Below the pieces are notes generated by a model. The model ran no database searches and was not told where the DNA came from. It saw only the letters and a list, made by a program, of their open reading frames with translations. A stretch of DNA of 23,882 nucleotides from a virus: positions 1-23,882 of the IMG/VR virus record IMGVR_UViG_3300044522_000855; one strand, written 5' to 3'. Both the position numbers and the translations under genes were made by a program. The number at the start of each line of letters is the position of its first letter. The stretch's first letter is position 1. Below are positions 4,018-19,417 of this stretch, piece by piece.

Positions 4018-4299
4018 ATGGCAAAACCAAGAGGTCTTAAAAATCAAGTGTTAACATTGAGAGCAGAAGGAAAATCCTATCGTATTATTCAAAAAGAATT
4101 AAATTGCTCCAGAGGAACTATTAATTATCATTGCAAGGAAAATGATATGACAGATATTGGAATGAAAATTCATCCAATAACTAATGAACTTAAAGTTCAA
4201 ATTGCTGAATATTGCACATCTAATACAAGTGTTAAAGCAAGTGAGAATTTTGGTTTGTCCTTATCTACCGTTAAAAAATACAGAAAATATCAAGGGTAA
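4018..4299 (+). CDS. Double helix-turn-helix DNA-binding protein
   Basis: 93 aa. Two HTH units are visible. The first is at residues about 8-40, with 'LRAEGKSYRIIQKELNCS' leading into the recognition helix 'RGTINYHCKEN'. The second is at about 58-93, with 'AEYCTSNTSVKASENFGLS' leading into 'LSTVKKYRKYQ'. Both have the spacing of homeodomain-like/resolvase-type HTHs. There is no effector or catalytic domain. It is the first gene after a terminator and a strong promoter, typical for a regulator. Targets unknown; the promoters sharing TATATTTGTA would be the first to test. Confidence 0.75.
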   Translation: MAKPRGLKNQVLTLRAEGKSYRIIQKELNCSRGTINYHCKENDMTDIGMKIHPITNELKVQIAEYCTSNTSVKASENFGLSLSTVKKYRKYQG

Positions 4300-4304
4300 A
4301 ACCA

Positions 4305-5177
4305 ATGAAAAAAAATTATTCATTAAGAATATTCAATCTTTTAGCAAAGAGGGTTTATAAGCTATCTAAAAAAAGAAAGTTAGGTTGGAAATGGAGAGAT
4401 GCTCAAAAGTGGACTTCCGCTAATCTATTCCAGCTTTATAAAGGTAAACCAATTTCTAAAATTAGAGTAACAGAAGTTGACCAAGTTATTGTTGGTATTT
4501 TAGATGCTACACCAACGACTACTGGAGTACCTACACCTAAACCAGCACCAACAGTTTGTTTTGATGTTTTTAATATTCCTACAAAGGATTTAAAGGACAT
4601 TAACTGGTGGATGTTAGCCGACCAAGTTGCTTTTTTTGATAACAACCTTAATATGAGAGTTGCTATTGGAACTACAATTGATACTGGAATAGTACAAAAG
4701 TTTGAATTACCAAACTTAAATGAAACAGTTGAGGATTTGCGTAGAGCTGGATATGGTTCAGATGAATTGATTATTTTTAGAATTTTAGTTGCTCCTAACA
4801 AAAGCGATGATGGTAAACCTTGCTCGTATTATGTATTAGCTACATTAGAAGGTTCTCCTTTAGATACGGTTACTTCACAAGAAGAAGTTGTTAAGATTGT
4901 TACAGAAAGCGATTTGCCTTTAGATATTAAAAAGGAACGTGAACTTAAAGTGCAAATTAGACAAGAAAAAATTGATGACAGAATTGCCAAGAAAAAATCT
5001 AAAGAGAGATTGCGACCATCAAAAGTTGAAGGTCAAGATGAAGCCGAGAAAAAACAGATTGAAGAAACTTTAAAAAATTTAGAAAGTCTTTATGCTAAAA
5101 AATTAATTTCCAAAGAGTTATTTCAAGCTAACGTAAAAGAATTAAAAACTAAATTGAGATTAGGAGGACAAATTTAA
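4305..5177 (+). CDS. Unknown phage protein with SHOCT-like C-terminal segment
   Basis: 290 aa. The N-terminus is very basic (residues 1-45, including 'LSKKRKLGWKWRDAQKW'). A Pro/Thr-rich linker (about 67-82) precedes an alpha/beta-looking core (about 85-205) and a highly charged helical region (210-250). The last about 35 residues, with 'LESLYAKKLISKELFQANVK', resemble the SHOCT short oligomerisation motif (L..Ly..g.It.eEF...k..L). A basic N-terminus plus oligomerisation tail suggests a DNA-associated or scaffold protein, but this is inference. It starts 5 bp after the double-HTH gene and ends 2 bp before the next one, so it belongs to that operon. Confidence 0.6.
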   Translation: MKKNYSLRIFNLLAKRVYKLSKKRKLGWKWRDAQKWTSANLFQLYKGKPISKIRVTEVDQVIVGILDATPTTTGVPTPKPAPTVCFDVFNIPTKDLKDINWWMLADQVAFFDNNLNMRVAIGTTIDTGIVQKFELPNLNETVEDLRRAGYGSDELIIFRILVAPNKSDDGKPCSYYVLATLEGSPLDTVTSQEEVVKIVTESDLPLDIKKERELKVQIRQEKIDDRIAKKKSKERLRPSKVEGQDEAEKKQIEETLKNLESLYAKKLISKELFQANVKELKTKLRLGGQI

Positions 5178-5179
5178 TT

Positions 5180-5890
5180 ATGGATAACCAAGAAGAAAAA
5201 CTTAAAAGAGTTTATTCAAAAATTAAGGTTAACAGATTTTACGACAGATTAGTTAAAGGTAAAGGTAATTTCCTTGTACGGTTTGGTAGTGAATGTAATG
5301 AACTTATTTTTGATAATGTACACAATGTATTTGCAACCGAGAATAAAAATTTTCCCTCAAAGATGATTTTTTTATTTAATATGGTTCAAAACGATGTTAG
5401 GAAATTCCTTGACATAAACCCTTATATTGATGTACCGCCTAGAAAAAATGTTGCAGAGTTCAACTATAAATACGATGACGAAGTTGGTACATTAACTGCT
5501 ACCGATTTAGACCACGCATTTTGGAGAATTGCATACGTTAAAGGTTACATTAGAAAAGAAACCTATACTAGAGGTTTGAATCCACTTGCTAAAGCATTAC
5601 GCCTAGCTACACTTTCAGTTTTAGGTAGAGGTAAGAAATTTGATAGATACGAAAATGGAACGTTTGTAGAAACTATTGTGCGTAAAAAATCCGATGATAC
5701 CTTGCAAAAAGTTTATGTTGATATTCGATACTCTTGCTACTTTATGATGTACGAACTTTCAGAATTACTTAAAGACGATTTCGAGAGTTGGAAAACAGAT
5801 TGCATTTACTACCGAGATACCCCAGAAAACAGACAGATTGTGCATAACTACTTTGAGGAGAGAGAAATGCTTTTTAAACAACTGATATAA
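5180..5890 (+). CDS. Protein with possible compact DNA-polymerase palm motifs
   Basis: 236 aa. Three segments in the right order recall family B/protein-primed polymerase palms. A motif A-like 'TATDLDHAFWRIAYVKGYI' spans residues 106-124. A basic motif B-like helix 'AKALRLATLSVLGRGKK' spans 137-153. A motif C-like 'SWKTDCIYYRDTPENR' spans 203-218 (compare DTDS in known enzymes; D109/D111 and D207 would be the metal ligands). It is far shorter than any standard polymerase (500 aa or more), lacks an exonuclease domain, and has only about 30 residues between A and B, so it may be a non-catalytic relative or something else. It is last in the 4018-5890 operon. I am confident that it is a real gene; the polymerase reading is a hypothesis. 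Confidence 0.65.
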   Translation: MDNQEEKLKRVYSKIKVNRFYDRLVKGKGNFLVRFGSECNELIFDNVHNVFATENKNFPSKMIFLFNMVQNDVRKFLDINPYIDVPPRKNVAEFNYKYDDEVGTLTATDLDHAFWRIAYVKGYIRKETYTRGLNPLAKALRLATLSVLGRGKKFDRYENGTFVETIVRKKSDDTLQKVYVDIRYSCYFMMYELSELLKDDFESWKTDCIYYRDTPENRQIVHNYFEEREMLFKQLI

Positions 5891-7569: not shown

Positions 7570-7881
7570 ATGAGCAAAATCCGATTTTATAAGTATTATT
7601 TTCGTGGTGTTGACAAACCAGTGATTATGGAAGCGGTAGATAGAATTACTGCCGACCAAATGATGCAACAATTAAAGCAAACTACTACTGCAAATTTAAG
7701 TGCAAAGGATTTAATTGATATAAGGGTTGAAACTCCTATAATCGGAATATCAAAGCGAAAGCGACATAACCAAGATTACGTTTGGGTTGGAAATGAATTT
7801 ACCAGTGATGGTTGGTTACTTCAATCAGAATATGACGAAATACAGAAACTTAAAAACAACAACAAAAATGATAAAAATTAG
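7570..7881 (+). CDS. Small unknown protein upstream of the recombination nuclease
   Basis: 103 aa, basic. The N-terminal half is strand/helix-like ('FYKYYFRGVDKPVIMEAVD', then 'ITADQMMQQLKQT'), and the second half has 'SKRKRHNQDYVWVGNEF', then 'SDGWLLQSEYDEIQ'. The last residues are Asn/Lys repeats (KNNNKNDKN). Its 3' end overlaps the nuclease gene by 14 bp (7868-7881), which links it to the recombination operon. No family is recognised; a partner of the nuclease or annealase is possible from position only. Confidence 0.6.
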   Translation: MSKIRFYKYYFRGVDKPVIMEAVDRITADQMMQQLKQTTTANLSAKDLIDIRVETPIIGISKRKRHNQDYVWVGNEFTSDGWLLQSEYDEIQKLKNNNKNDKN

Positions 7882-8653
7882 TCAATCTTTTTTAAAAGAA
7901 TACGCTTCATACAAAGCTGGAGAAACTTGCGGACTTCAAGTTAAAGCAAAATATGTAGATGGTGTAAAATTTCCCTCTAGCAATGCGATGGAATATGGTA
8001 ACGCATTTGAGTATTTAGCAACTGGTTCTATACCTAGAGATGGACATATTCCCGAAATGGAAATGGTTTACGTTGGAACTAAACGTGAAAGTATATCAGC
8101 ACAATATCAAAAAATTATACAGAGTGCCGAGTTATTTAAAAAAATAGTCAAAGCATACGAAATCGAAATTATTGATATAGGTAAGGTTTGCACCGAAGAT
8201 GGTATGACTGGTATAATGGATATTATTGCCAAGTGGGATGATAGGATTTGTATTATTGATACCAAGTATAGCGGACTTATAGATGATAAGTGGTCGCAGT
8301 TTGGTTGGAACATAGATGCCTTGCCAGAAAAACACAATCTAATGATACAATCAGTTCATTATAAAATTTTGTTGGCAAAAGAGTTAAATTGTGATTTTGA
8401 CGATATTGACTTTTATTTTTTCGTTTTTTCCTCTCAAAACGTACACGATGTGAAACTTATAAAAGTTCACACAGACGAAAATACCTTTGCTACTCACTTA
8501 TCTACCGTTGAATGGATAAAATCAGAATTAAAAAAACCAGTGGAGCAAATATTTAAAGCAAAACCATCGCTTAAAAGATGCTTTGAGTGTCCTATATCGG
8601 ATAATTGCAAATCTAAAGTAGAAATTCCCTTTATAGACGAAATCGTTTATTAA
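7868..8653 (+). CDS. RecB/Cas4-like PD-(D/E)XK exonuclease with Fe-S cysteines
   Basis: 261 aa from the ATG at 7868; an in-frame ATG at 7787 would overlap the upstream gene by 95 bp and adds no conserved sequence. Nuclease motifs are visible: 'GNAFEYL' (G44-E48), 'GIMDII' with D118, 'IIDTKYS' with D131 and K133, and a 'Q161xxxY165' motif in 'MIQSVHYKILL'. One Cys near the N-terminus (C21) and three near the C-terminus (C238, C241, C247 in 'RCFECPISDNCKSK') reproduce the four-cysteine 4Fe-4S arrangement of Cas4/AddB-type nucleases. With RecT two genes downstream, it is expected to resect double-stranded DNA ends and hand single strands to the annealase, as lambda Exo or RecE do. There is no Cas1/Cas2 or repeat array, so no CRISPR role is suggested. 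Confidence 0.85.
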   Translation: MIKISQSFLKEYASYKAGETCGLQVKAKYVDGVKFPSSNAMEYGNAFEYLATGSIPRDGHIPEMEMVYVGTKRESISAQYQKIIQSAELFKKIVKAYEIEIIDIGKVCTEDGMTGIMDIIAKWDDRICIIDTKYSGLIDDKWSQFGWNIDALPEKHNLMIQSVHYKILLAKELNCDFDDIDFYFFVFSSQNVHDVKLIKVHTDENTFATHLSTVEWIKSELKKPVEQIFKAKPSLKRCFECPISDNCKSKVEIPFIDEIVY

Positions 8654-8876: not shown

Positions 8877-9719
8877 ATGACAAACGCTATTAGTAAAGAT
8901 GTAGTAGGTTCTTTTACTACTACAATTGAAAAATACGAAAAGAAAAATCTAGCCGAACTATTAGAGGGTTCTAGTATGACACCAGCTCAATTTAAGCAAA
9001 TTGTAATCAATGAACTTAAAAGGTCGCCAAAACTTCAAGAAGCATTTGTAAAAAATCCAGCTTCATTGTTTGCTAGTATATTACATTGTGCAGAAATGGG
9101 TTTGAATCCAAGTCAAATGGTGGGCGAGTTTTTCTTTATTCCTTACAAGGATAGCATAACACCAATTTTAGGATATAAGGGTTTATTAACGCTTCTAATG
9201 AGGTCGAATAAGGTTAAGAAGATTTGGAGTGAAGTAGTTTATGAAGATGATGACTTTGAGTACGAATTGGGATTAGAACCAAAGTTATTGCATACGCCTA
9301 ACCACCAGTCAATCAGAAATTCAAAAAACATAAAATGTATTTACGCTTGTGCTAAAATTGATGATGAAGTAGTTTTTAAAGTAATGTTCAAAAGCGAAAT
9401 TCAAAATATTATCAATATGTCTAAATTTCCAAACGAACTTTTTTTTAATGATAAAAAAGACCCAGAGCAATGGATGGCAAAGAAAACAGTTTTAAAGCAG
9501 TTGGCGAAGCTAATGCCTAAAGATGATGACCGATTGAAAAAAGCAGTTACAATGGATGATAATATTGAGGGTGGTGGTTATCTTATTATGGATGATAACG
9601 ATACTGTAAGATTTGTTCAAGGAACTGTTATTGGAAAAAAAAGTAGCATTTATGCCAAATTAATGGAAAAAAATGTACCAGAGGATTTGTTAGTGGAAAA
9701 TAATATTGTAGATTTGTAA
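8877..9719 (+). CDS. recT: RecT-family single-strand annealing protein
   Basis: 280 aa, close to the usual RecT length. Diagnostic segments are present: 'SMTPAQFKQIVINELKRSP' followed by 'ASLFASILHCAEMGLNP', then 'GEFFFIPYKDSITPILGYKG' (residues about 87-106), 'FKVMFKSEIQNI', and the C-terminal 'WMAKKTVLKQLAKLMPK' (about 200-217). RecT anneals complementary single strands produced by its partner nuclease and supports phage recombination and repair. It is last in the operon with the nuclease at 7868-8653, and both arms of the genome stop at the terminator just downstream. The start ATG at 8877 follows AATTAAAA with no Shine-Dalgarno, as usual here. Confidence 0.9.
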   Translation: MTNAISKDVVGSFTTTIEKYEKKNLAELLEGSSMTPAQFKQIVINELKRSPKLQEAFVKNPASLFASILHCAEMGLNPSQMVGEFFFIPYKDSITPILGYKGLLTLLMRSNKVKKIWSEVVYEDDDFEYELGLEPKLLHTPNHQSIRNSKNIKCIYACAKIDDEVVFKVMFKSEIQNIINMSKFPNELFFNDKKDPEQWMAKKTVLKQLAKLMPKDDDRLKKAVTMDDNIEGGGYLIMDDNDTVRFVQGTVIGKKSSIYAKLMEKNVPEDLLVENNIVDL

Positions 9720-9809: not shown

Positions 9810-10997
9810 TTATTGGACTATAATTGTAACATCGTTTGAACCTTGATTTGCAGTATAAATATTTCCAAAACTATCAATTGTTATGCTTCGTGGTACTGCA
9901 CCAGTTGTTCCTATAATTGTAGATACTCCTAATGGTGTAATTTTACTTACATCATTACTTCCACTATTTGCAGTATAAATATTTCCAGCACTATCTATTG
10001 TTATGCCAACTGGTACTGCACCAGTTATTCCTAAAATACTCGATGCACCCAAAGGTGTAATTTTACTTACATTATCATCAGTAATATTTGTAGTATAAAT
10101 ATTTCCAGCACTATCTATTGTTATGCCAATTGGATTTGTACCAGTTGTTCCTAATATAGTTGATACGCCTAAAGGAGTGATTTTACTTACATTATTACTA
10201 TTAAAATTTGCAGTATAAATATTCCCACTTGAATCAATTGTTATTCCAATTGGATTTGAACCAGTTGTTCCTAAAATAGTAGAAACTCCCAATGGTGTAA
10301 TTTTAGTTACATTATTAGAATTTTCATTTGCAGTATAAATATTTCCAAAACTATCAATAGTTATTTCATACGGACTTAATCCAGTTGTTCCTAAAATAGT
10401 AGAAACTCCCAATGGTGTAATTTTACTTACATTATTATCAGTAATATTTGAAATATAAATATTTCCAGCACTATCTATTGTTATGCCAACTGGATTTGTA
10501 CCAGTTAATCCTAATATAGTTGATGCACCCAAAGGTGTAATTTTACTTACATTATTAGCATTATTATTTGAAGTATAAATATTTCCAGCACTATCAATAG
10601 TTATTCCTAATGGAGATGCACCCGTTGTTCCAAAAATAGAACTTCCAGCAATACTTATGTTAGAATATATATAATAATTTGACGAAGCGTAAATAATGCT
10701 TCCAGAATATGAAAATAAACCTTGATTAAGCGTATTTAAGGCATCAATTACTCCAATAATGCTTTGAGAGGTTACTGGAGCATTATAAGTTACTATTACT
10801 GGGTTTGAAGTGTTTGAAATATTTATGCTTACGTTTGTAATACCAACATAAGATTGACCAGTAAAATTAAATTCATATAGAAAATTATTGTTATTAGCCG
10901 TATTTGAATTTGGAATAACTGATAACATAGATACTGGTTGCGGTAACGCAGTATTATTTACAACTCTTAAATTTATTTGACTTGATGATGAGTTCAT
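9810..10997 (-). CDS. Seven-blade NHL-type beta-propeller protein with N-terminal attachment domain
   Basis: 395 aa from the ATG at 10997; this start overlaps the upstream stop as ATGA, while the earlier in-frame ATG at 11057 would add 20 residues inside that gene. Residues 1 to about 115 are Asn/Ser-rich with beta-strand character. The rest is seven 40-residue repeats with the signature 'GITIDSAGNIYTAN...NVSKITPLGVSTILGTTG', typical of NHL/virginiamycin-lyase-like propellers. The stretch 'SIFGTTGASPL' before the first full repeat supplies the strand missing from the last one ('DVTIIVQ'), the usual closure of a seven-blade ring. No catalytic residues can be assigned. The last gene of the virion-like block, it may be a receptor-binding spike or vertex protein (inference). 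Confidence 0.8.
   Translation of the reverse strand: MNSSSSQINLRVVNNTALPQPVSMLSVIPNSNTANNNNFLYEFNFTGQSYVGITNVSINISNTSNPVIVTYNAPVTSQSIIGVIDALNTLNQGLFSYSGSIIYASSNYYIYSNISIAGSSIFGTTGASPLGITIDSAGNIYTSNNNANNVSKITPLGASTILGLTGTNPVGITIDSAGNIYISNITDNNVSKITPLGVSTILGTTGLSPYEITIDSFGNIYTANENSNNVTKITPLGVSTILGTTGSNPIGITIDSSGNIYTANFNSNNVSKITPLGVSTILGTTGTNPIGITIDSAGNIYTTNITDDNVSKITPLGASSILGITGAVPVGITIDSAGNIYTANSGSNDVSKITPLGVSTIIGTTGAVPRSITIDSFGNIYTANQGSNDVTIIVQ
9834..10620 (-). repeat. 120-bp in-frame repeats of the propeller gene
   Basis: Seven units of 120 bp, each coding one 40-residue blade, are easily aligned by the plus-strand phrase GTATAAATATTTCC, which recurs every 120 bp from about 9850 to 10570. 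Units are about 80-90% alike, pointing to recent amplification or gene conversion rather than an ancient propeller. Confidence 0.85.
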
Positions 10998-11470
10998 AAC
11001 CTTTTGTTTTTTATTAAAAAATAAACCGCTAATCCTATTAAAGCGACTGATGTCCACCTTAACACTTGCGGACTTACATAATTTTTGTTTTTTGCAAAAT
11101 TTACAAAATGCTCACAATTAAAATTTATGAAATCGTATTTGTATTTTTCTAATTCTTCATATATTTTTTCAATATCTTCTAATTTTAAATTAGTTTGTTC
11201 CACCGAAACTATATGCCTATTCTTAATCCATTTTTCTAACGGTTCTCTTACTGTGTTTCCACCTTTTGAATTAAATTTGTCTGGATGATTGTGTATAATA
11301 AAAAGACCATCTATATCCTTTTCAACAATTCCGTAATGAAAAATTAATGCGTTAGTTTCTGCTTTTGTTTTTAATAAATTTCCAGTTTCAAGTTTAGAAA
11401 TTATATAATCCCTATTTTCAATCTTTACTTTATTAATTGGTGCTTCGTTATATTTCGTCAGTATAGTCAT
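10994..11470 (-). CDS. LRAT/NlpC-P60-like papain-fold protein with C-terminal membrane anchor
   Basis: 158 aa. An 'H45-Y-G-I-V' motif, a second histidine group ('IIHNHP', H60/H62) and the late 'N118-C119-E-H-F-V' box match the order of catalytic residues in the permuted NlpC/P60 group that includes LRAT and HRAS-like acyltransferases (H...H...NCEHF). C119 would be the nucleophile. Residues about 139-154 (WTSVALIGLAVYFLI) form a C-terminal span followed by KNKRL, also a feature of PLAAT/LRAT enzymes. Family members transfer acyl chains or cleave phospholipids or amides; a cell-wall amidase is the alternative. It sits between virion-like membrane genes, overlapping the upstream gene by 23 bp and the propeller gene by 4 bp. 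Confidence 0.7.
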   Translation of the reverse strand: MTILTKYNEAPINKVKIENRDYIISKLETGNLLKTKAETNALIFHYGIVEKDIDGLFIIHNHPDKFNSKGGNTVREPLEKWIKNRHIVSVEQTNLKLEDIEKIYEELEKYKYDFINFNCEHFVNFAKNKNYVSPQVLRWTSVALIGLAVYFLIKNKRL

Positions 11471-11897
11471 TAAATAAATTAAAAAAATCGTTGTTAAAGA
11501 AATTTGTTCGTGGAATTAAATCTCGATTTGCTAATTGGTTTACTTCAAATATTAAATATAAAGATTCATTAGGTAATAATTCAAAATCTAAAGTTGTTCT
11601 TCCATCAAATATAACATTTTCTTTTGCTAATTTTATAAATAATGAAGTTTGAAATTGATAGGGGTCAATAGTTGGTATATCAACATACGATTTTAAAGTA
11701 CCATTTACATCGTATGTATTGAATTGATAACTTTGAAGTATTTGGCTAATATTACTTGCATTTAAGTACATTTCTGTAACTCCATACATAAAACTACCCA
11801 TTGATTCAACAATAGAGGTATAAGGGGTTGCATCTAAACTTGCGACAGTTACAACTCCATCAACATAAGTCGTTATGGTTGGTATATATATAGGCAT
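11448..11897 (-). CDS. Unknown beta-rich, virion-like protein
   Basis: 149 aa, acidic, rich in Thr, Tyr, Asn and Phe, with a predicted beta-rich pattern. It starts with 'MPIYIPTITTYVDGVV', has 'TTLDFELLPNESLYLIFEV' around residues 99-117, and an Asn/Phe-rich tail. No signal peptide or span. The start overlaps the preceding stop by one base (TAATG) and its end overlaps the LRAT-like gene by 23 bp. Composition and context suggest a structural protein of the particle. Not recognised. Confidence 0.6.
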   Translation of the reverse strand: MPIYIPTITTYVDGVVTVASLDATPYTSIVESMGSFMYGVTEMYLNASNISQILQSYQFNTYDVNGTLKSYVDIPTIDPYQFQTSLFIKLAKENVIFDGRTTLDFELLPNESLYLIFEVNQLANRDLIPRTNFFNNDFFNLFNDYTDEI

Positions 11898-12244
11898 TAA
11901 TCAGTAGTTTCTTGTTTAATTACTTTTCCATCTTTTGACATAGCTCTTAACAATCCAGTTTTTTTGTTAATCATAACTTTTACGCCATAATCTTGCAAAA
12001 TCATTGAACTTAACTTATCTAACTCTCCTTTGCTTTCCTTACTATCAATTGCTTCACGCATCGCTTGTAATCCTATTACCGCATTTTCTTTTAATTTTGT
12101 TTCTGTATCAGAAACTTGCTTTGGTTCAGCATATTTTACATCTAAAAGTCCTTTTTTACTTTTGTCGCTTTTAGGTCTTAATAGCCAAATAAGAAGTAAT
12201 GCACCTCCTAGTGTAATAAACAATGTTTTCGTATTCTTATCCAT
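11897..12244 (-). CDS. Small N-terminally anchored membrane protein
   Basis: 115 aa. A single span at residues about 8-23 (LFITLGGALLLIWLL) is followed by a very basic patch (RPKSDKSKK), predicting the C-terminal domain on the side that retains positive charge. The soluble part has 'ENAVIGLQAMREAIDS', then a helix and a short basic domain ('DYGVKVMINKKTGLLRAMSK'). It lies 1 bp after the stop of the tandem coiled-coil membrane genes. The plan is like that of the plus-strand anchored proteins at 1778-3924 but the sequence is unrelated. Probably a membrane component of the particle (inference). Confidence 0.6.
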   Translation of the reverse strand: MDKNTKTLFITLGGALLLIWLLRPKSDKSKKGLLDVKYAEPKQVSDTETKLKENAVIGLQAMREAIDSKESKGELDKLSSMILQDYGVKVMINKKTGLLRAMSKDGKVIKQETTD

Positions 12245-12245
12245 C

Positions 12246-12635
12246 TTATTTTTTTGCTAATTTTAATATTACTAATGCTAAAATTGTAACTCCTACTCCT
12301 AAAACTATGTACGAAGTATATCTTTTACCTTGAACTCTATTTAACATTTCATTGTTATTTTGAACTGCTAAAAATTGATAAATCATACCTTGTCTTTCGG
12401 TTTCCGATTGTACATCTTGCAATCTTTCCTCTAACTGCTTTTGTTGTGCTAAACTTAATTTTGTTAGTTCTTCTTGAAGTTTTAATGCTTTTTCATTTTC
12501 TCCTTTAGCAAACATACCACCTATTACTTGTGATATAACTGCACCAAATATTTGACCGCCAACATTTGCTAAACCGCCACCACTAGATTTTGCTCCTCCA
12601 GTAGCTCCTTCAACGTTATTGTATAAATTTTCCAT
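12246..12635 (-). CDS. Membrane protein: hydrophobic segment, coiled coil, C-terminal span
   Basis: 129 aa from the ATG at 12635, 2 bp after the stop of the upstream gene; a longer frame from 12716 would overlap that gene by 79 bp. A Gly-rich start (AKSSGGGLANVGGQIFG) runs into a hydrophobic segment (residues about 24-43). Residues 46-100 are a charged coiled coil (GENEKALKLQEEL...). A C-terminal span (about 109-125) ends in KLAKK. It is a paralogue of the upstream gene (12638-13186): the coil regions align (GENEKALKLQEELTKL with GDKNRALQKKLALAQL). A two-span hairpin separated by a coil could shape or cross a membrane; holin-like action is an alternative. Confidence 0.65.
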   Translation of the reverse strand: MENLYNNVEGATGGAKSSGGGLANVGGQIFGAVISQVIGGMFAKGENEKALKLQEELTKLSLAQQKQLEERLQDVQSETERQGMIYQFLAVQNNNEMLNRVQGKRYTSYIVLGVGVTILALVILKLAKK

Positions 12636-12637
12636 AA

Positions 12638-13186
12638 TTAATCTTTTGATGAACCAATTAAATAAACTCCGAACAAAATACCAAGTCCTATACCCAATCC
12701 AGTTACATAAAGCCAAGTATCTTTTAATCTTGCAGTACTTTCTTTTTGTAAAGTTGTTCTGTAAGCTAAAAGAGTATTAGCCATAATAGTCAACCTAGCG
12801 GTTTCTTGCTCTGCTCTAATTTTTTCTTCTGCAAGTTTTTCATCCATTGACAATTGTGCCAACGCCAACTTTTTCTGCAACGCTCTATTTTTATCGCCTT
12901 CACTCATTGCAATTACACCACTAACTACCGAGCCAACAACTGCCATAATAATCCCCGCAACAATGTTTAATTCGCCATCATTTGCCATTGAATTATCTAA
13001 TGCAAGTGCAAAATCTTTGTCTTGATTTATATATACTGCCGAGTAAACTAACTTTGTAATTTGAGGTAAGGTTGCGGTTTTTAACTGTATATCATAGCCA
13101 AATTGTTGCAATAATACTACTGCAACATCTGGCTTATCATATATAAAATCATTTATTTTTTTATCTATTGCCGTTGTGTTTTCCAT
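12638..13186 (-). CDS. Membrane protein: helical head, hydrophobic segment, coiled coil, C-terminal span
   Basis: 182 aa. An N-terminal soluble domain (residues 1-70) precedes a Gly/Val-rich span (about 74-94, NIVAGIIMAVVGSVVSGVIA), a charged coiled coil (98-155) and a second span (158-178) ending in GSSKD. Its second half is homologous to the next gene, so the pair arose by duplication, with the N-terminal domain present only here. It is the first gene of the block 13186-9810. The upstream gap (13187-13245) holds AT-rich sequence with no clean -7 element, so it may be read through from the glycosyltransferase gene. Function unknown. Confidence 0.65.
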   Translation of the reverse strand: MENTTAIDKKINDFIYDKPDVAVVLLQQFGYDIQLKTATLPQITKLVYSAVYINQDKDFALALDNSMANDGELNIVAGIIMAVVGSVVSGVIAMSEGDKNRALQKKLALAQLSMDEKLAEEKIRAEQETARLTIMANTLLAYRTTLQKESTARLKDTWLYVTGLGIGLGILFGVYLIGSSKD

Positions 13187-13245: not shown

Positions 13246-14121
13246 TTATTTCAAGGCATTTATTATTGATTGAGTATCAAAAACTTCCGTGAAATTTGTA
13301 TAAGGTAATGTTGAAATATCTTCGTATAGCAAATGTTTAGTATAACTGTTGCTTTCAACGTTTACTTCTTTTGTAGGTTCGTTTGCGACAATATTAGTGT
13401 GCATATCATATCCAAAAACTTTTGGATTTGTTCCTATCCAACCTACAACACTAGGTAGGTTTAAAGCGGTAGCAATGTGCATAGAACTACTATCAATCAA
13501 AAGTCTTTTAGTAGATAGTGTAAGCATTATAGCAATACTTCTCCAGCTATCTAAAGCACCAATAGTATTTTCATAAATTAATTGGTCATCTCTTTTAATA
13601 TGTAAAATTGCATAATCATTTTTAAAATAATCTACAACTTCATTTACAATTGAAGCTGGTAAATCTCTTGTCCAACTATACTTTAAAGGTTGCCCTATTG
13701 CACCTCCATTTGGCTGAATTGCCATAATTGGTTTGTCTAATTTATAGAATGGTGCAAAATATTCTTTTTCTCCTTTTGATAAAAATATTTCTGGCAATTC
13801 TCCATTATACTTTAATCCGTATATGTCGCACCATATTTTAAGTAAATGGTTGCTTTCAGTAATAAAATCACTTGTTGAATAAGGGTCTGTTATAAAAACT
13901 TTAGTGTCTTTATTGTGAATGTAGCTTTTATACAAACCTACTGCTTGTTGCTGGTGCAATACTTTGTTTACATTTGGATTTCCAATAAATACATCTGGGT
14001 AGCCAGTTATAACAATTATATTTGCTTTTTTGTATTCTTTTTTAATTACTTTTAGAATTGCGGTTGCCATTATTGACTTTCCTAAACCCCCATCTACTTG
14101 AAAAATTATTGTGTTTGCCAT
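13246..14121 (-). CDS. GT9-like (ADP-heptosyltransferase-type) glycosyltransferase
   Basis: 291 aa. The N-terminal glycine loop (QVDGGLGKSIMATAIL, residues 8-23), 'IQPNGG' (about 135-140) followed by 'YSWTRDLP', and the donor-site signature 'LLIDSSSMHIATALNLPSVV', then 'GWIGTNP' (about 207-233) are the features of GT9 enzymes, where 'DSG..H.A.AL..P.v..fG.t.P' is typical. Here the second Gly of DSG is Ser. GT9 members transfer heptose or related sugars to lipopolysaccharide or other glycans. It follows the sulfation genes with a 4-bp gap and is presumably co-transcribed, suggesting glycan modification by both sugar and sulfate. The acceptor is unknown. Confidence 0.75.
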   Translation of the reverse strand: MANTIIFQVDGGLGKSIMATAILKVIKKEYKKANIIVITGYPDVFIGNPNVNKVLHQQQAVGLYKSYIHNKDTKVFITDPYSTSDFITESNHLLKIWCDIYGLKYNGELPEIFLSKGEKEYFAPFYKLDKPIMAIQPNGGAIGQPLKYSWTRDLPASIVNEVVDYFKNDYAILHIKRDDQLIYENTIGALDSWRSIAIMLTLSTKRLLIDSSSMHIATALNLPSVVGWIGTNPKVFGYDMHTNIVANEPTKEVNVESNSYTKHLLYEDISTLPYTNFTEVFDTQSIINALK

Positions 14122-14125
14122 TTTT

Positions 14126-14404
14126 TTATTTTTTATTTGTTAAACCATATTTAATCCATCTATACCAAACTCTCTCGTGAATATAGTATTGTATTGGCTT
14201 GTAAACCAATTCTGCTATTCCAAATGCAGTTCCTACTTTAATAGAACCGCTTACACCCCAAACTACTACAAATCCAATTGCAGTACTTAATATTCTATAA
14301 CTAATCGTTTTAGCGATATGTCTTTTATAACTTACTTCTTTTTCTTTTTTTGAAAAATCTTTAACGCTTTTATATTTTCCAGAATTGTTGCTTGTTGTAA
14401 CCAT
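14126..14404 (-). CDS. DUF2061 membrane protein
   Basis: 92 aa. After a polar N-terminus come 'KRHIAKTISYRILSTAIGF' (residues about 27-45), a hydrophobic hairpin through 'VGTAFGIAELVYKPIQYY' and the closing 'HERVWYRWIKYG', which is the DUF2061 pattern (R..aKtisyR...K...Yy.HERvW). It probably has two membrane-embedded helices. From memory, DUF2061 genes often sit beside cysC/cysD/cysN in bacteria, which would fit the APS kinase here, but I could not check this. Role inferred: membrane partner of the sulfation cassette, for example in sulfate supply. The gap to the nucleotidyltransferase gene is 3 bp. Confidence 0.8.
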   Translation of the reverse strand: MVTTSNNSGKYKSVKDFSKKEKEVSYKRHIAKTISYRILSTAIGFVVVWGVSGSIKVGTAFGIAELVYKPIQYYIHERVWYRWIKYGLTNKK

Positions 14405-14407
14405 ATT

Positions 14408-14818
14408 TTACAATTTACCTTCTTTTTTCATTTGCTCTCTAATTTTAGTAGCCGAAACATCTGATATTTCAGTAGGTGGTACATACTCTACAATGTCATA
14501 TCCAACACCTCTGCCAAAATTAACCGATTCAATATCTGGTATTACCATTACTTTCATAATTCCCGAACTTACTAATAAAGCATAGGTATCTTCTATATTT
14601 TTTTTTACTTGCTCTGGAGTAAAAGGATTATTTTCATTTAATTCTCCATCTCTTATACAAATCAATAAGTTTTTACCCTCGTTAAGTGCTTCTTGAAATA
14701 ATGCTTGATGCGATAAGTGAAGTGGTTGCCAACGACCAACAAACATTGCATATTGATTTTTTTTATTTTCTAAAGAAGATTTAATATGAACTATTTTTTT
14801 CCAATTTTTTGTTTCCAT
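14408..14818 (-). CDS. HxxH-type nucleotidyltransferase (cytidylyltransferase-like superfamily)
   Basis: 136 aa. 'MFVGRWQPLHLSHQALFQEA' (residues 25-44, H34 and H37) is the nucleotide-binding HxxH/HxGH loop, and 'SATKIREQ' (122-129) is the second conserved site of the superfamily that includes NMN adenylyltransferase, CoaD, TagD and ATP sulfurylase. The size is close to the minimal fold. In its setting, among APS kinase, sulfotransferase and DUF2061, an adenylyl transfer to sulfate is an attractive idea, since ATP sulfurylase has the same two sites (RNPxHxxH and SGTxxR). NMN adenylyltransferase-like or sugar-nucleotide activity is equally possible from sequence. The assignment to the superfamily is firm; the substrate is not known. 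Confidence 0.75.
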   Translation of the reverse strand: METKNWKKIVHIKSSLENKKNQYAMFVGRWQPLHLSHQALFQEALNEGKNLLICIRDGELNENNPFTPEQVKKNIEDTYALLVSSGIMKVMVIPDIESVNFGRGVGYDIVEYVPPTEISDVSATKIREQMKKEGKL

Positions 14819-14819
14819 T

Positions 14820-15131
14820 TTAGTTTATGTAAGCTATTAATTTATCAAATACTACTTCTGGTGCATCAGCAACAATGTGATGTACAAATCCCCCTAATTC
14901 TTCGTAAAAATGACTTTCAGTCCTACAAGGTGCATTAATTATTATTTCAGAAACGTGAAATTCTAGACCATCTAAAATAATTCTCCATTTTCTACTTCCA
15001 TCAATATCATTAGGATTAAATCTAATTTGAATGAAGTAATTGCCTTCTGCCTTTTTCATTAAAATTTTTCTGCCCTCCAAAATTAAATCTTGCAAGGCGT
15101 TTGCCGTTGCATTACTCTTTTTCAAATCCAT
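14820..15131 (-). CDS. Unknown protein within the sulfation cassette
   Basis: 103 aa. It has a likely helical N-terminus (residues 1-27) and then a beta-rich core: 'NYFIQIRFNPNDIDGSRKWR', 'ILDGLEFHVSEIIINAPC', and 'GFVHHIVADAPEVVF' near the end. His85/His86 and Cys69 are possible metal ligands, but this is speculative. It starts inside the APS kinase gene (20-bp overlap); a later ATG at codon 25 is the alternative start. Its fixed place between APS kinase and nucleotidyltransferase suggests a partner or specificity subunit. I recall similar small proteins next to sulfotransferases in marine phages, but without a search this stays an impression. Confidence 0.6.
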   Translation of the reverse strand: MDLKKSNATANALQDLILEGRKILMKKAEGNYFIQIRFNPNDIDGSRKWRIILDGLEFHVSEIIINAPCRTESHFYEELGGFVHHIVADAPEVVFDKLIAYIN

Positions 15132-15594
15132 CGTTACTAAATTTAATTGAATTAATTTTATCTAGCAATTCATTTACGGAAGTAAGTTCATCAATATCGG
15201 TTGTATCAATATCAATAAAATTTGTTTCTGGTTTTTCAAAATCAACAACGTGGAAGTTTTCTCTACCTCTTATGTTTTCTGTGTGAACAAAAATCTCAAC
15301 TACATCAGAAATTAGTTTAAATTCCTCTCTTAAATCTAAAAAGGGCGAAACTACCGCAATAATTACATCGTTTGTTCTATCTGCATCTAAATATCTAGCA
15401 ATAGCGTATGCTTTGCCAATATTATCTCTGCGACCTTCTCTTGAATAATCTTTGTTATTAAGAATTTTACGCAAATCATCGCCATCAATAATAAATGCTT
15501 TTCTATGGGGATTGTTAATTTCTAAAGCAGTTTTTAAGTGTTTTGCTAAAGTTGTTTTTCCAGAATGGGGTTGTCCGATTAAGTTGTAAATCAT
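15112..15594 (-). CDS. cysC: Compact adenylylsulfate (APS) kinase
   Basis: 160 aa. It has a P-loop GQPHSGKTTLAK (residues 7-18), then the APS-kinase signature 'IDGDDLRKILNNKDYSREGR' (36-55), followed by 'RDNIGKAYAIARYL' and 'VVSPFLDLREEF' (81-92). It phosphorylates APS to PAPS, the sulfate donor used by the neighbouring sulfotransferase. It is shorter than cellular CysC (about 200 aa): the lid/APS-binding part usually containing 'KGLYKKARAGEIK...TGID' is replaced by 'RGRENFHVVDFEKPETNF', so the substrate site is altered. A small P-loop kinase with another substrate remains possible. A promoter and the conserved leader precede it. Confidence 0.75.
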   Translation of the reverse strand: MIYNLIGQPHSGKTTLAKHLKTALEINNPHRKAFIIDGDDLRKILNNKDYSREGRRDNIGKAYAIARYLDADRTNDVIIAVVSPFLDLREEFKLISDVVEIFVHTENIRGRENFHVVDFEKPETNFIDIDTTDIDELTSVNELLDKINSIKFSNDGFEKE

Positions 15595-15655
15595 TTTGTT
15601 GTTATTTTAAAGTTTCTTGGTTCAAATGTAATCAAAATTTTAAACGTAACCAAAA
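15595..15655 (-). promoter_or_regulatory. Promoter and conserved leader (copy B) before cysC
   Basis: On the minus strand TTTTG (15655-15651) lies 20 bp from TACATTTG (15630-15623), a good -33/-7 pair. It is followed at once by the leader ACCAAGAAACTTTAAAATAA then CAACAAA and the ATG (15594). The promoter overlaps the end of the sulfotransferase gene. This means 15594-13246 can be transcribed independently of the sulfotransferase. Confidence 0.65.
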
Positions 15656-16458
15656 TAATCGTAAAACCATTTGTAAGTATTTTTGATACTGTTAGATAAT
15701 TCAAATCCTAAAACTTCATTATAATCATCTTCATTTTTCTCAAATTTAGGTCTTAACTGGTGGTCGCCATATATTCCGTGAATAAGGTCGTTTTCGTGTG
15801 TCAATTGAGTAACGTTTTCAAAATCGTGTGATTCGTAGTAAGGAACTTCAAAATACTCGTATAAACGCTTCATTTCGTTTTCTGGATTAGACATTAAATC
15901 TTCGTAACGAATGAATAACATTTTTTTTGCTATTCCTTGCTGAATACAATCTTTTAATCTATCCATTGAAACTCCAACTGGAACTCCATCTGCCCAAATA
16001 TTAATTCTTTTATCCAATGTAGTACCAACTAATTGTGGTGCATTTTGAATATGACTTTCACGGTGTGGGTTTTTACGGAAGTTTTTTTCCATTGAAGAAT
16101 AAACTGAACGTACATCTCTTACCATACAAACGATTTTTGGATTTTCGTTAAGCATATTCAAAAGGTTGTAATGAATACCCCAATCTCTGCTTTTATCAAC
16201 GATAAATTCTTTTGGTGTAAGGTTATTGAAAAAACCTTGCATACCAGCTCTACAAAAACCTAAAAATGCTTTTTCCATTGCTTCTTTGTCTTGCGACAAA
16301 ATTGCTTGGGAATGAGCATAAGTGTTTTTTGAATTTAAAACCAAATCGCCTAAACCAGAGGTAGGCGTACAATAAAAGTCTGGGTTTTGAGCAATTAAAT
16401 TTGACAAAAGTGTCGAACCAGCTCTAGGTAATGAAGAATTGAAAAAAATCTTTTTCAT
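15640..16458 (-). CDS. PAPS-dependent sulfotransferase
   Basis: 272 aa. The 5'-phosphosulfate loop is 'SSLPRAGSTLLSN' (residues 8-20), and the 3'-phosphate site is 'RDVRSVYSS' (114-122), both in their standard places. 'FIRYEDLMSNPENEMKRLYE' is the usual late motif. There is no signal peptide or membrane span, so it acts in the host cytoplasm. It transfers sulfate from PAPS to an acceptor, which may be a glycan, lipid or protein tyrosine; the acceptor cannot be read from sequence. It is the first gene of the cassette, with the conserved leader upstream. The APS kinase just downstream would supply its donor. Confidence 0.85.
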   Translation of the reverse strand: MKKIFFNSSLPRAGSTLLSNLIAQNPDFYCTPTSGLGDLVLNSKNTYAHSQAILSQDKEAMEKAFLGFCRAGMQGFFNNLTPKEFIVDKSRDWGIHYNLLNMLNENPKIVCMVRDVRSVYSSMEKNFRKNPHRESHIQNAPQLVGTTLDKRINIWADGVPVGVSMDRLKDCIQQGIAKKMLFIRYEDLMSNPENEMKRLYEYFEVPYYESHDFENVTQLTHENDLIHGIYGDHQLRPKFEKNEDDYNEVLGFELSNSIKNTYKWFYDYFGYV

Positions 16459-16966: not shown

Positions 16967-19417
16967 TTAAGGTACAATACACAAAGTACCAGCACTACTC
17001 CAAACCGAACCACTCGGTAAACCAGCACTTGCAGTTGGAATGTTTTTAATTGAAAGGTTATTTACAAATGTAGCACAATTTCTATCAGCAGTTATGTAAG
17101 AACCAGCTATTACAACGCAAGTAAATGAGCAAGTAGCGTTGTTACGACCACCTACAATTGCAGAATAACAACCAAAAGCAGTATTATTAACACCACCACT
17201 TATTGTTGAATAAGTACCAGAAGCAATATTATAATAACCACCGCCTATTGTTGAACGATTACCAGAAGCATTATTACCAGCACCACCACCAACTGTTGAC
17301 AAACAATTAGAAGCAGTATTATCTTTACCTCCACCAACTGTTGAATGATAGCAAGAAGCAACATTTCCTCTACCACCACTAACTGTTGAATAATTATTAG
17401 AAGCAGTATTTTCATAACCACCACCAATTGTTGAACAAGCACCAGAAGCAGTGTTACTTTTACCTCCACCAACTGTTGACTTATTCCCAGAAGCAGTGTT
17501 ACAATAACCACCACCAATTGTTGAATAATAATTAGAAGCAGTATTTTGATTACCACCACCAATTGTAGATTGACTACCAGAAGCATTATTATAACTACCA
17601 CCACTTATTGTAGAACGGAAACCAGAAGCAGTATTTTGAAAACCACCTCCAACTGTTGAATAACAACCAGAAGCAGTGTTAGCTTTACCGCCACTAATTG
17701 TAGAACAACCACTAGAAGCAATGTTAGATGTACCACCACTAACTGTTGAATAAAAATTAGAAGCAATGTTACTTGCACCACCACCAACTGTTGACTTAAA
17801 ACCACAAGCAGTATTATAAGAACCACCACCAATTGTTGAATAAGCGTTAGAAGCAGTATTAGAATAACCACCTCCAATTGTTGACCTATCGCCAGAAGCA
17901 GTATTATTTTTACCACCCCCTACTGTTGAAATATAACCAGAAGCAGTGTTTGATTGACCACCACCAACTGTTGAATTATTATAAGAAGCAGTGTTTTGCC
18001 TACCACCACCAACTGTTGAACGAGAACCAGAAGCAGTATTACCTTGACCACCACTAATTGTTGAATAAGAATTAGAAGCAGTATTATTTCTACCTCCACC
18101 AACTGTTGAAAAGTTACCACCAGCAGTGCTTAAACAACCACCACCAATAAATGCACAATTTCCAGAAGCAGAATTACAATAACCCCCTCCAATTGTTGTA
18201 AAACATCCAATACTCTTATTTGCAAAACCACCACCAATTGTTGCATAATTACAAGAAGCAGTGTTAGCTCTACCACCACCAATTGTTGAAACAAAACCAG
18301 AAGTAGTGTTATACTTACCACCTCCAATTGTTGAATAGTCAGTAGCATAATTACAATAACCCCCTCCAATTGTTGACCTATCGCCAGAAGCAATATTACT
18401 AGCACCGCCACCTACTGTTGACCTATAACCAGAAGCAGTATTACTTTGACCACCACCAATTGTTGAACGACTACCAGAAGCAGTGTTGCTTTGACCACCT
18501 CCTACTGTTGAATAATAATTAGAAGCATTGTTATATTTTCCACCACCAACTGTTGAACATTGACCATAAGCAGTATTATTAGTACCACCACTTATTGTAG
18601 AACGGAAACCAGAAGCAGTATTTTGAAAACCACCTCCAACTGTTGAATAACTACTAGAAGCAGTGTTATTACAACCCCCACTAACTGTTGACATAAAACC
18701 AGAAGCAGTATTTTGTAAACCACCACCAACTGTTGATGTAACACCAGAAGCAGTGTTACTTTGACCCCCAGCAATTGTTGAAGAAATATTAGAAGAAGTA
18801 TTATAATAACCACCTCCAACTGTTGAACAACTACTAGAAGCAGTGTTTTTTTTACCACCAGATATTATTGATAATATACCAGAAGCAGTATTAAAATATC
18901 CACCACCAATTGTTGCATAATCATTAGAAGCATTATTATAATAACCACCAATTGTCGATGCATAACTAGAAGAAGCAGTGTTTTTTTTACCACCAACAAC
19001 TATTGATAATCTACCAGAAGCAGTATTACATTGACCACCACCAACTGTTGAAAAGCATCCAGAAGCATCATTAGTTCCTAAAATTGGCTCTATACCAGTA
19101 GCATTAGCATTATATTCAAATGGACTACTTGCACCAACACAACCACCACCAGCAGTATCAAATCCAAAATTTGCTTCCGCAAAAGCAATAAATGAAGCAA
19201 CATCAAAAGGCACATCGGCTGAATCAACGCAATTTGCTAAAGGTTGAGTAAATATAACAGTTGAGTTACCTAAATACTTATTGTAAATAACTATTAAAGG
19301 AATAGCATCGTATAAAGAGAGTACATCAATTGCACACGAGTTTTTCGGTGTAACTAATATTACATTGCCATTATTTGATACTTGTAAACTTCCATCTACT
19401 ATTTGTAATTTTATCAT
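16967..19417 (-). CDS. Long YadA-head-type repeat fibre with modular N- and C-termini
   Basis: 816 aa. Residues 1-88 form an N-terminal domain also present alone in the upstream gene (19429-19689). A bridging segment 'SPFEYNANATGIEPILGTN' (98-116) is shared with the 942-aa fibre. Residues about 118-765 are roughly 43 copies of a 15-residue repeat (STVGGGQSNTASGYR) of the Hep_Hag/YadA-head type, which forms a left-handed trimeric beta-roll in known members. The last about 50 residues ('CATFVNNLSIKNIP', then 'AGLPSGSVW...LCIV') are shared with the other fibres. No signal peptide, membrane anchor or autotransporter barrel is present, which argues for a virion fibre rather than a bacterial adhesin. 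Likely host recognition. Confidence 0.85.
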   Translation of the reverse strand: MIKLQIVDGSLQVSNNGNVILVTPKNSCAIDVLSLYDAIPLIVIYNKYLGNSTVIFTQPLANCVDSADVPFDVASFIAFAEANFGFDTAGGGCVGASSPFEYNANATGIEPILGTNDASGCFSTVGGGQCNTASGRLSIVVGGKKNTASSSYASTIGGYYNNASNDYATIGGGYFNTASGILSIISGGKKNTASSSCSTVGGGYYNTSSNISSTIAGGQSNTASGVTSTVGGGLQNTASGFMSTVSGGCNNTASSSYSTVGGGFQNTASGFRSTISGGTNNTAYGQCSTVGGGKYNNASNYYSTVGGGQSNTASGSRSTIGGGQSNTASGYRSTVGGGASNIASGDRSTIGGGYCNYATDYSTIGGGKYNTTSGFVSTIGGGRANTASCNYATIGGGFANKSIGCFTTIGGGYCNSASGNCAFIGGGCLSTAGGNFSTVGGGRNNTASNSYSTISGGQGNTASGSRSTVGGGRQNTASYNNSTVGGGQSNTASGYISTVGGGKNNTASGDRSTIGGGYSNTASNAYSTIGGGSYNTACGFKSTVGGGASNIASNFYSTVSGGTSNIASSGCSTISGGKANTASGCYSTVGGGFQNTASGFRSTISGGSYNNASGSQSTIGGGNQNTASNYYSTIGGGYCNTASGNKSTVGGGKSNTASGACSTIGGGYENTASNNYSTVSGGRGNVASCYHSTVGGGKDNTASNCLSTVGGGAGNNASGNRSTIGGGYYNIASGTYSTISGGVNNTAFGCYSAIVGGRNNATCSFTCVVIAGSYITADRNCATFVNNLSIKNIPTASAGLPSGSVWSSAGTLCIVP
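17123..19066 (-). repeat. 45-bp tandem repeat array in the 816-aa fibre gene
   Basis: About 43 head-to-tail 45-bp units; on the plus strand the phrase ACCACCACCAACTGTTGA recurs with variations and is followed by AGAAGCAGTATTA. Some non-adjacent stretches are identical over more than one unit, for example near 17607 and 18595, where CGGAAACCAGAAGCAGTATT occurs in the same context. This is a sign of internal recombination. Confidence 0.95.

Follow-up and report, generated by a model that had tools for sequence, protein, structure and literature searches.

The stretch of DNA analysed here (the window) is a 23,882-base record of an uncultivated virus and is a fragment without end repeats. An open reading frame that begins with ATG and encodes 236 amino acids lies on its plus strand, as the original prediction had indicated; we refer to the product as the palm protein. 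The gene lies in a block that includes the following:

4018–4299, plus strand: helix-turn-helix protein of 93 amino acids (HTH matches; present in 22 loci)
4305–5177, plus strand: upstream partner of the palm protein, 290 amino acids, basic, pI 9.4 (in each of 50 loci, a homologue precedes the palm gene on the same strand)
5180–5890, plus strand: palm protein, 236 amino acids, ATG start (conserved family, palm-containing model, structural matches)
7787–8653, plus strand: PD-(D/E)XK exonuclease-like protein (PHROG 69 exonuclease, 5.5e-07; weak PDDEXK_1 match below the curated cut-off; 37 loci)
8877–9719, plus strand: RecT single-strand annealing protein (Pfam RecT, 8.7e-32; 29 loci within the flanks covered)

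In the window's nearest relatives the helix-turn-helix gene opens the block, and the putative exonuclease and RecT genes lie downstream of the palm gene in the same block. The gap between the partner and palm genes runs from −11 to +51 nt in 45 of the 50 loci. Homologues of the partner have 284–354 amino acids, a pI of 8.9–10.1, and an invariant T127 and R146. Searches of Pfam, PHROGs and further libraries matched the partner to no known family, and we regard it as a candidate terminal protein or cofactor.

The palm protein family and its conserved residues

Close relatives of the palm protein, at 78–81% identity, are present in a handful of viral contigs. A DNA pattern for motif A, together with two scans by profile, widened the family to 51 non-identical members of roughly 233–260 amino acids, with 32–81% identity to the window protein. 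All of them come from uncultivated viral contigs, and relaxing the motif-A pattern yielded no additional family. Judged by sequence, the protein is without recognisable relatives in the phage records, plasmid records and genome collection searched (the last in two scans of genome_contigs). Used as a single query against PHROGs, Pfam, PDB sequences, phages and plasmids, the protein returned nothing useful, and the family as a whole is absent from Pfam, PHROGs, NCBIfam, PADLOC and PDB sequences. Neither the family nor its virus group turned up in searches of the open-access literature.

Three stretches of the protein had originally been singled out as resembling motifs A, B and C of family B or protein-primed DNA polymerases. 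These stretches (residues 107–123, 141–153 and 204–217) occur in the order claimed, and their conservation goes beyond chance, since they hold 13 of the 25 invariant residues within 44 of the 236 residues (hypergeometric p = 6e-5, for 51 non-identical homologues and three stretches that had been picked from one sequence). The parts of the protein are:

5180–5491, plus strand: N-terminal part, residues 1–104, three short strands and a helix in the model; no invariant acid
5495–5533, plus strand: motif A, residues 106–118, TATDLDHAFWRIA; T108, D109, A113, W115 and A118 invariant in 51 of 51; strand 105–110, then helix 113–120
5591–5626, plus strand: motif B, residues 138–149, KALRLATLSVLG, a short fingers helix; K138, L142 and L145 invariant, R141 in 49 of 51, G149 in 40 of 51; helix 135–146
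5789–5818, plus strand: motif C, residues 204–213, WKTDCIYYRD; T206, D207, C208, Y210 and Y211 invariant; strands 201–205 and 208–212

Residues invariant in all 51 members thus include T108, D109, A113, W115, A118, K138, L142, L145, T206, D207, C208, Y210 and Y211, among which D109 (codon 5504–5506) and D207 (codon 5798–5800) are the sole invariant acidic residues of the family. Of the key aspartates named in the original prediction, these two held up, whereas D111 did not: this position is D in 27 members, N in 22 and E in 2, and because it varies across the family a catalytic role for D111 is unlikely. D213 varies between D and E, and the putative sugar-gate position is occupied by F/Y114.

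Predicted fold and relation to family B polymerases

An AlphaFold2 model made with only 7 close sequences had a pLDDT of 39 and was discarded; with the 51-member alignment the pLDDT was 93.3 and the pTM 0.86. A palm is present in this model of the 236-residue protein, as had been anticipated. Up to motif B it contains strand 105–110 (with D109) and helices 113–120, 126–132 and 135–146 (motif B), followed by strands 152–158 and 161–169, helix 173–200, strands 201–205 and 208–212, helix 215–227 and strand 232–235. D109 closes a strand and T206–D207 lies at the turn of a β-hairpin, and in the model these two residues are placed, as regards secondary structure, where the metal-binding Asp of polymerase palms would be. 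The palm protein would thus share with the polymerase palm superfamily a predicted palm fold with the corresponding Asp placement, and two invariant, putatively metal-binding Asp. The palm-containing predicted fold, together with the invariance of D109 and D207 in the 51 homologues, supports the earlier reading of the protein as a stripped-down polymerase relative.

VIA-align was run against Foldseek's best PDB candidates. Each of the 50 rows listed is a polymerase, a reverse transcriptase or an entry for the herpes helicase-primase, in the last of which we take the matching chain to be UL8; no GGDEF or Cas10 palm is among these 50 rows, drawn from Foldseek's best candidates. Family B tops the rows listed, with Pol alpha (8v6g) at Z 8.7 over 130 residues and 3.4 Å, and other family B values of 8.3 (E. 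coli Pol II), 8.2 (TgoT), 8.0 (KOD), 7.3 (phi29) and 6.9 (RB69); UL8 scored 7.8, Taq 6.8, and DinB and retron RT 6.0, where a Z of 7–9 is middling according to the tool's own note. The phi29 row ends with model residue 236 on chain residue 487 which, if the row is ungapped, would presumably set D207 on D458, an indirect reading because the tool gives range ends only. Read in the same indirect way, the RB69, KOD and Pol alpha rows begin at positions that presumably place motif A within 2–3 residues of the catalytic Asp. Foldseek against the PDB was weak on its own (best E 1.7e-3), and its rows include Abi-P2 (7r08, E 0.039). In BFVD, several divergent viral DNA polymerases, including family B, matched at a probability near 1.00.

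The sequences themselves gave a different picture for family B. None of 25 family members scanned had a Pfam polymerase match, hhalign against 11 protein-primed family B polymerases (PolBs) was not significant (Prob 0.1%), and in a block-wise comparison with the fingers excised motif A alone of three blocks was marginal (1 of 60 shuffles). Membership of family B by sequence was rejected, as profile–profile comparison was not significant, either whole or in blocks, save for the weak signal in motif A. The proposed kinship with family B or protein-primed polymerases is thus suggested by the predicted fold and the order of the motifs, but is not accompanied by significant sequence similarity in profile–profile searches.

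Compared with the DxxSLYP form of motif A, the family reads D[LIV][NDE][HSG]A[FY]W, in which the D, the position before the A and the aromatic residue match, while L is replaced by A and P by W throughout. Distant members read TGTD[IV]NSAYW, nearer to the DVNSLYP of phi29 than the window protein is. Motif B does not show the KxxxNxxYG pattern: it retains K138 and R141 but has Leu at the N and Y positions, and the Gly corresponds to the partly conserved G149. Nor is the DTD of motif C present in full, since the invariant T206–D207 is preceded by K, R or N; the first Asp of DTD is also missing in several active PolBs (PMC11071308). An exonuclease domain was rejected, there being no invariant acid in residues 1–104. 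The thumb is absent, as the window protein stops at strand 232–235 and the tails of other members have at most about 25 residues. Because motifs A and B are only about 30 residues apart, there is no room for TPR1.

The virus group and its genome ends

The original prediction saw no other polymerase in the window, and none was found: a scan of ten ORFs of the window gave no match to any polymerase family, and PF03175 is absent from the whole window, one of four shorter records scanned for this family together with a 72.5-kb contig. Across 21 related contigs of 60–101 kb there was no match to PF00136, PF00476, PF07733, PF09250 or DnaB_C, and no DnaB-type helicase was found in them. For the four groups scanned, namely A, B, C and Prim-Pol, the idea of a standard polymerase hidden elsewhere in these viruses is not supported. 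The phage initiator domain Phg_2220_C is present in 20 of the 21 related contigs. The packaging-type ATPase of the virus group was found on 11 contigs, and all of those of at least 47 kb also carry the palm gene, whole or in part.

Exact inverted repeats of 123–653 bp were found at the ends of 5 of 18 related contigs, and the other 13, possibly fragments, show none. The repeats measure 123 bp in G001 (72.5 kb), 127 bp in G015 (84.4 kb), 653 bp in G022 (74.1 kb), 123 bp in G017, where the repeat contains a tRNA-Leu gene, and 127 bp in G021. The values of 123 and 127 look like assembler overlaps into a collapsed repeat, so that the true repeats may be longer; they could also stem from inverted repeats at some other place in the genome. 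The ends of G014, G015 and G016 lie within about 80 bases of each other, and the repeat of G021 matches the end of G024; because these ends coincide, real termini are favoured. Linear genomes with inverted repeats usually imply protein priming, which is established for phi29, PRD1 and adenovirus. By computation from coordinates, the palm gene lies about 5–14 kb from one end in the five repeat-bearing contigs.

Several observations were made on the remaining genes of the group. In the 72,545-bp contig G001 (L010–L013) and at 11448–13186 on the minus strand of the window, the genes of interest comprise numerous short proteins with a single membrane span and a P-loop ATPase (L011:14493–15314); a protein encoded at L011:16965–17660 shares the string PTIDPYQ with the window protein at 11448–11897. 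The shared PTIDPYQ, the membrane-span proteins and the P-loop ATPase suggest an unusually large virus that has no tail and contains a membrane. The same contig carries, at L010:16495–19436, a MoxR-type AAA ATPase (PF07728) followed by a 524-residue protein with a weak DUF7192 match, making an AAA-plus-partner pair. On the minus strand of the window, a PPPDE-type peptidase (10994–11470; Pfam 7.8e-07) overlaps the beginning of a SAGNIYTAN-repeat protein (9810–11057). Further along this strand, 13246–16458 holds metabolic-looking genes resembling glycosyltransferase 9, nucleotidyltransferase, adenylylsulfate kinase and sulfotransferase; the adenylylsulfate-kinase-like homologue in L012 matches APS_kinase and the other three were assigned by eye. 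Two minus-strand proteins of 816 and 942 amino acids (16967–19417 and 19709–22537) consist of repeated STIGGGxxNTASG units and resemble in look the head repeats of YadA/Hep-Hag adhesins.

Proposed role, alternatives and comparison with known systems

We consider it fairly probable that the palm protein is an active miniature family-B-like palm nucleotidyltransferase that acts in viral DNA replication, with catalysis predicted from the model and the conserved residues. On this reading, a virus group not described before, in which none of the known polymerase families tested was found, might rely on it as a pared-down polymerase. The motifs and their invariance, the confident palm-containing model, the constant partner gene, the exonuclease–RecT setting and the inverted repeats of five contigs speak for this reading, whereas the lack of significant sequence-profile similarity, the missing NxxYG and the middling Z values speak against it. 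Its core would have the order β-α-β-β-α-β, with very short fingers formed by the helices between motifs A and B and a small N-terminal part. D109 and D207 would bind two metal ions, K138/R141 would hold the triphosphate and F/Y114 would act as the sugar gate, so that the palm protein, working with its upstream partner, might transfer nucleotides either to a 3′ end or to the hydroxyl of a protein as the viral genome replicates. Since there is no thumb, processive synthesis by the palm protein alone is unlikely, as is the copying of 60–101 kb by a thumbless 28-kDa palm on its own. Because the Phg_2220_C initiator is present, and would recruit it, the host replisome probably does the bulk of synthesis. 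Possible sub-roles of the palm protein are initiation at the inverted-repeat ends, or extension and gap filling after exonuclease–RecT annealing.

In an alternative that we regard as unlikely, a polymerase-derived palm would have lost catalysis and would have a structural or recruiting function within a viral replication complex, in the manner of UL8 and partnered by the upstream protein. UL8, a component of the herpes helicase-primase described as an inactivated family B polymerase in a statement cited in PMC4304020, is indeed among the structural matches, with the Z of 7.8 given above, and the absence of the thumb, the first Asp of motif C and the Asn of motif B fits a scaffold. Against this, both putative metal-ligand Asp are invariant in 51 of 51 members and are the sole invariant acids, which is the opposite of the inactivated F12, in which most catalytic palm residues are replaced (PMC4304020).

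A palm nucleotidyltransferase working outside DNA copying, which would make untemplated DNA as Abi enzymes do, or a small nucleotide signal, for host takeover or counter-defence, seems to us quite improbable. Palms do serve such roles too, Abi polymerases being protein-primed and template-independent (PMC9508834), and Abi-P2 is among the Foldseek PDB rows; however, the gene, present at every locus compared, sits in a block with the exonuclease and RecT genes, a placement of core replication type rather than accessory, and PADLOC returned no match. There is only a very slight chance that the palm model is itself wrong, a common alpha-beta arrangement having been over-read from the resemblance of motifs. 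Family B lacks sequence-level support, the best Z is below 9 and the best Foldseek E against the PDB is weak, all of which would agree with an over-reading. Yet the Asp positions were named when no homologue had been seen, and two of these turned out to be the sole invariant acids, on the expected strand and hairpin; moreover, all 50 VIA rows listed are palm polymerases or their derivatives, whereas a common arrangement would be expected to bring in unrelated proteins.

If the protein is an active miniature palm, as we favour, a more specific and rather doubtful possibility is that it forms, with the 290-residue partner, a minimal protein-primed initiation pair. The partner would be a new terminal protein, and the palm would attach the first nucleotides at the inverted-repeat ends of linear genomes of 60–101 kb before the host replisome takes over. 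Such a system would fall far below the known protein-primed family B polymerases in size and would represent a new way of replicating linear DNA without a full viral polymerase.

More generally, an active miniature palm would illustrate how small a part of a family B polymerase can be maintained by selection, namely a palm and a stub of the fingers, in a protein less than half the size of the PRD1 polymerase (553 amino acids). The palm gene is, in addition, a marker of what seems to be an undescribed virus group from aquatic and other environments, whose contigs span 60–101 kb. The same reading would bear on how replication starts in linear inverted-repeat viruses without an identifiable polymerase, such as the alphasphaerolipoviruses (PMC5332951), and would make a fold-based search of such genomes for overlooked miniature palms a concrete test.

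In the alphasphaerolipoviruses SH1 and HCIV-1 the genome is a linear dsDNA bounded by inverted terminal repeats, and a canonical polymerase gene is missing (PMC5332951, PMC4958249). In these respects they parallel the present group, but they differ in being archaeal and about 30 kb in size, and no palm relative was found by sequence in the HCIV-1 genome. The protein-primed PolBs of phi29, PRD1 and Cp-1 share with the palm family the A-B-C order of motifs, a D..SLYP-like motif A in distant members (TGTDINSAYW), the TD of motif C and the palm topology, which is predicted here; their systems also have inverted repeats, seen here on five related contigs. As in PRD1 and Cp-1, a basic gene lies directly upstream, where their terminal-protein gene sits, and the terminal-protein gene of phi29 is also just upstream of its polymerase gene. 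In contrast to the PRD1 and phi29 polymerases (553–572 amino acids), however, the palm protein has 236 amino acids, and unlike the protein-primed PolBs it is without exonuclease motifs, TPR1, thumb and NxxYG, and has K, R or N in place of the first Asp of DTD. Mavirus-type PolBs and Tlr1-like palm-helicases differ in being large and multidomain, with both TPR1 and TPR2, and in belonging to eukaryotic elements. Finally, herpesvirus UL8, itself a structural match, and poxvirus F12 are likewise polymerase-derived palms in viruses, but they are described as lacking catalysis (PMC4304020), whereas the palm family keeps both putative metal-ligand Asp invariant.
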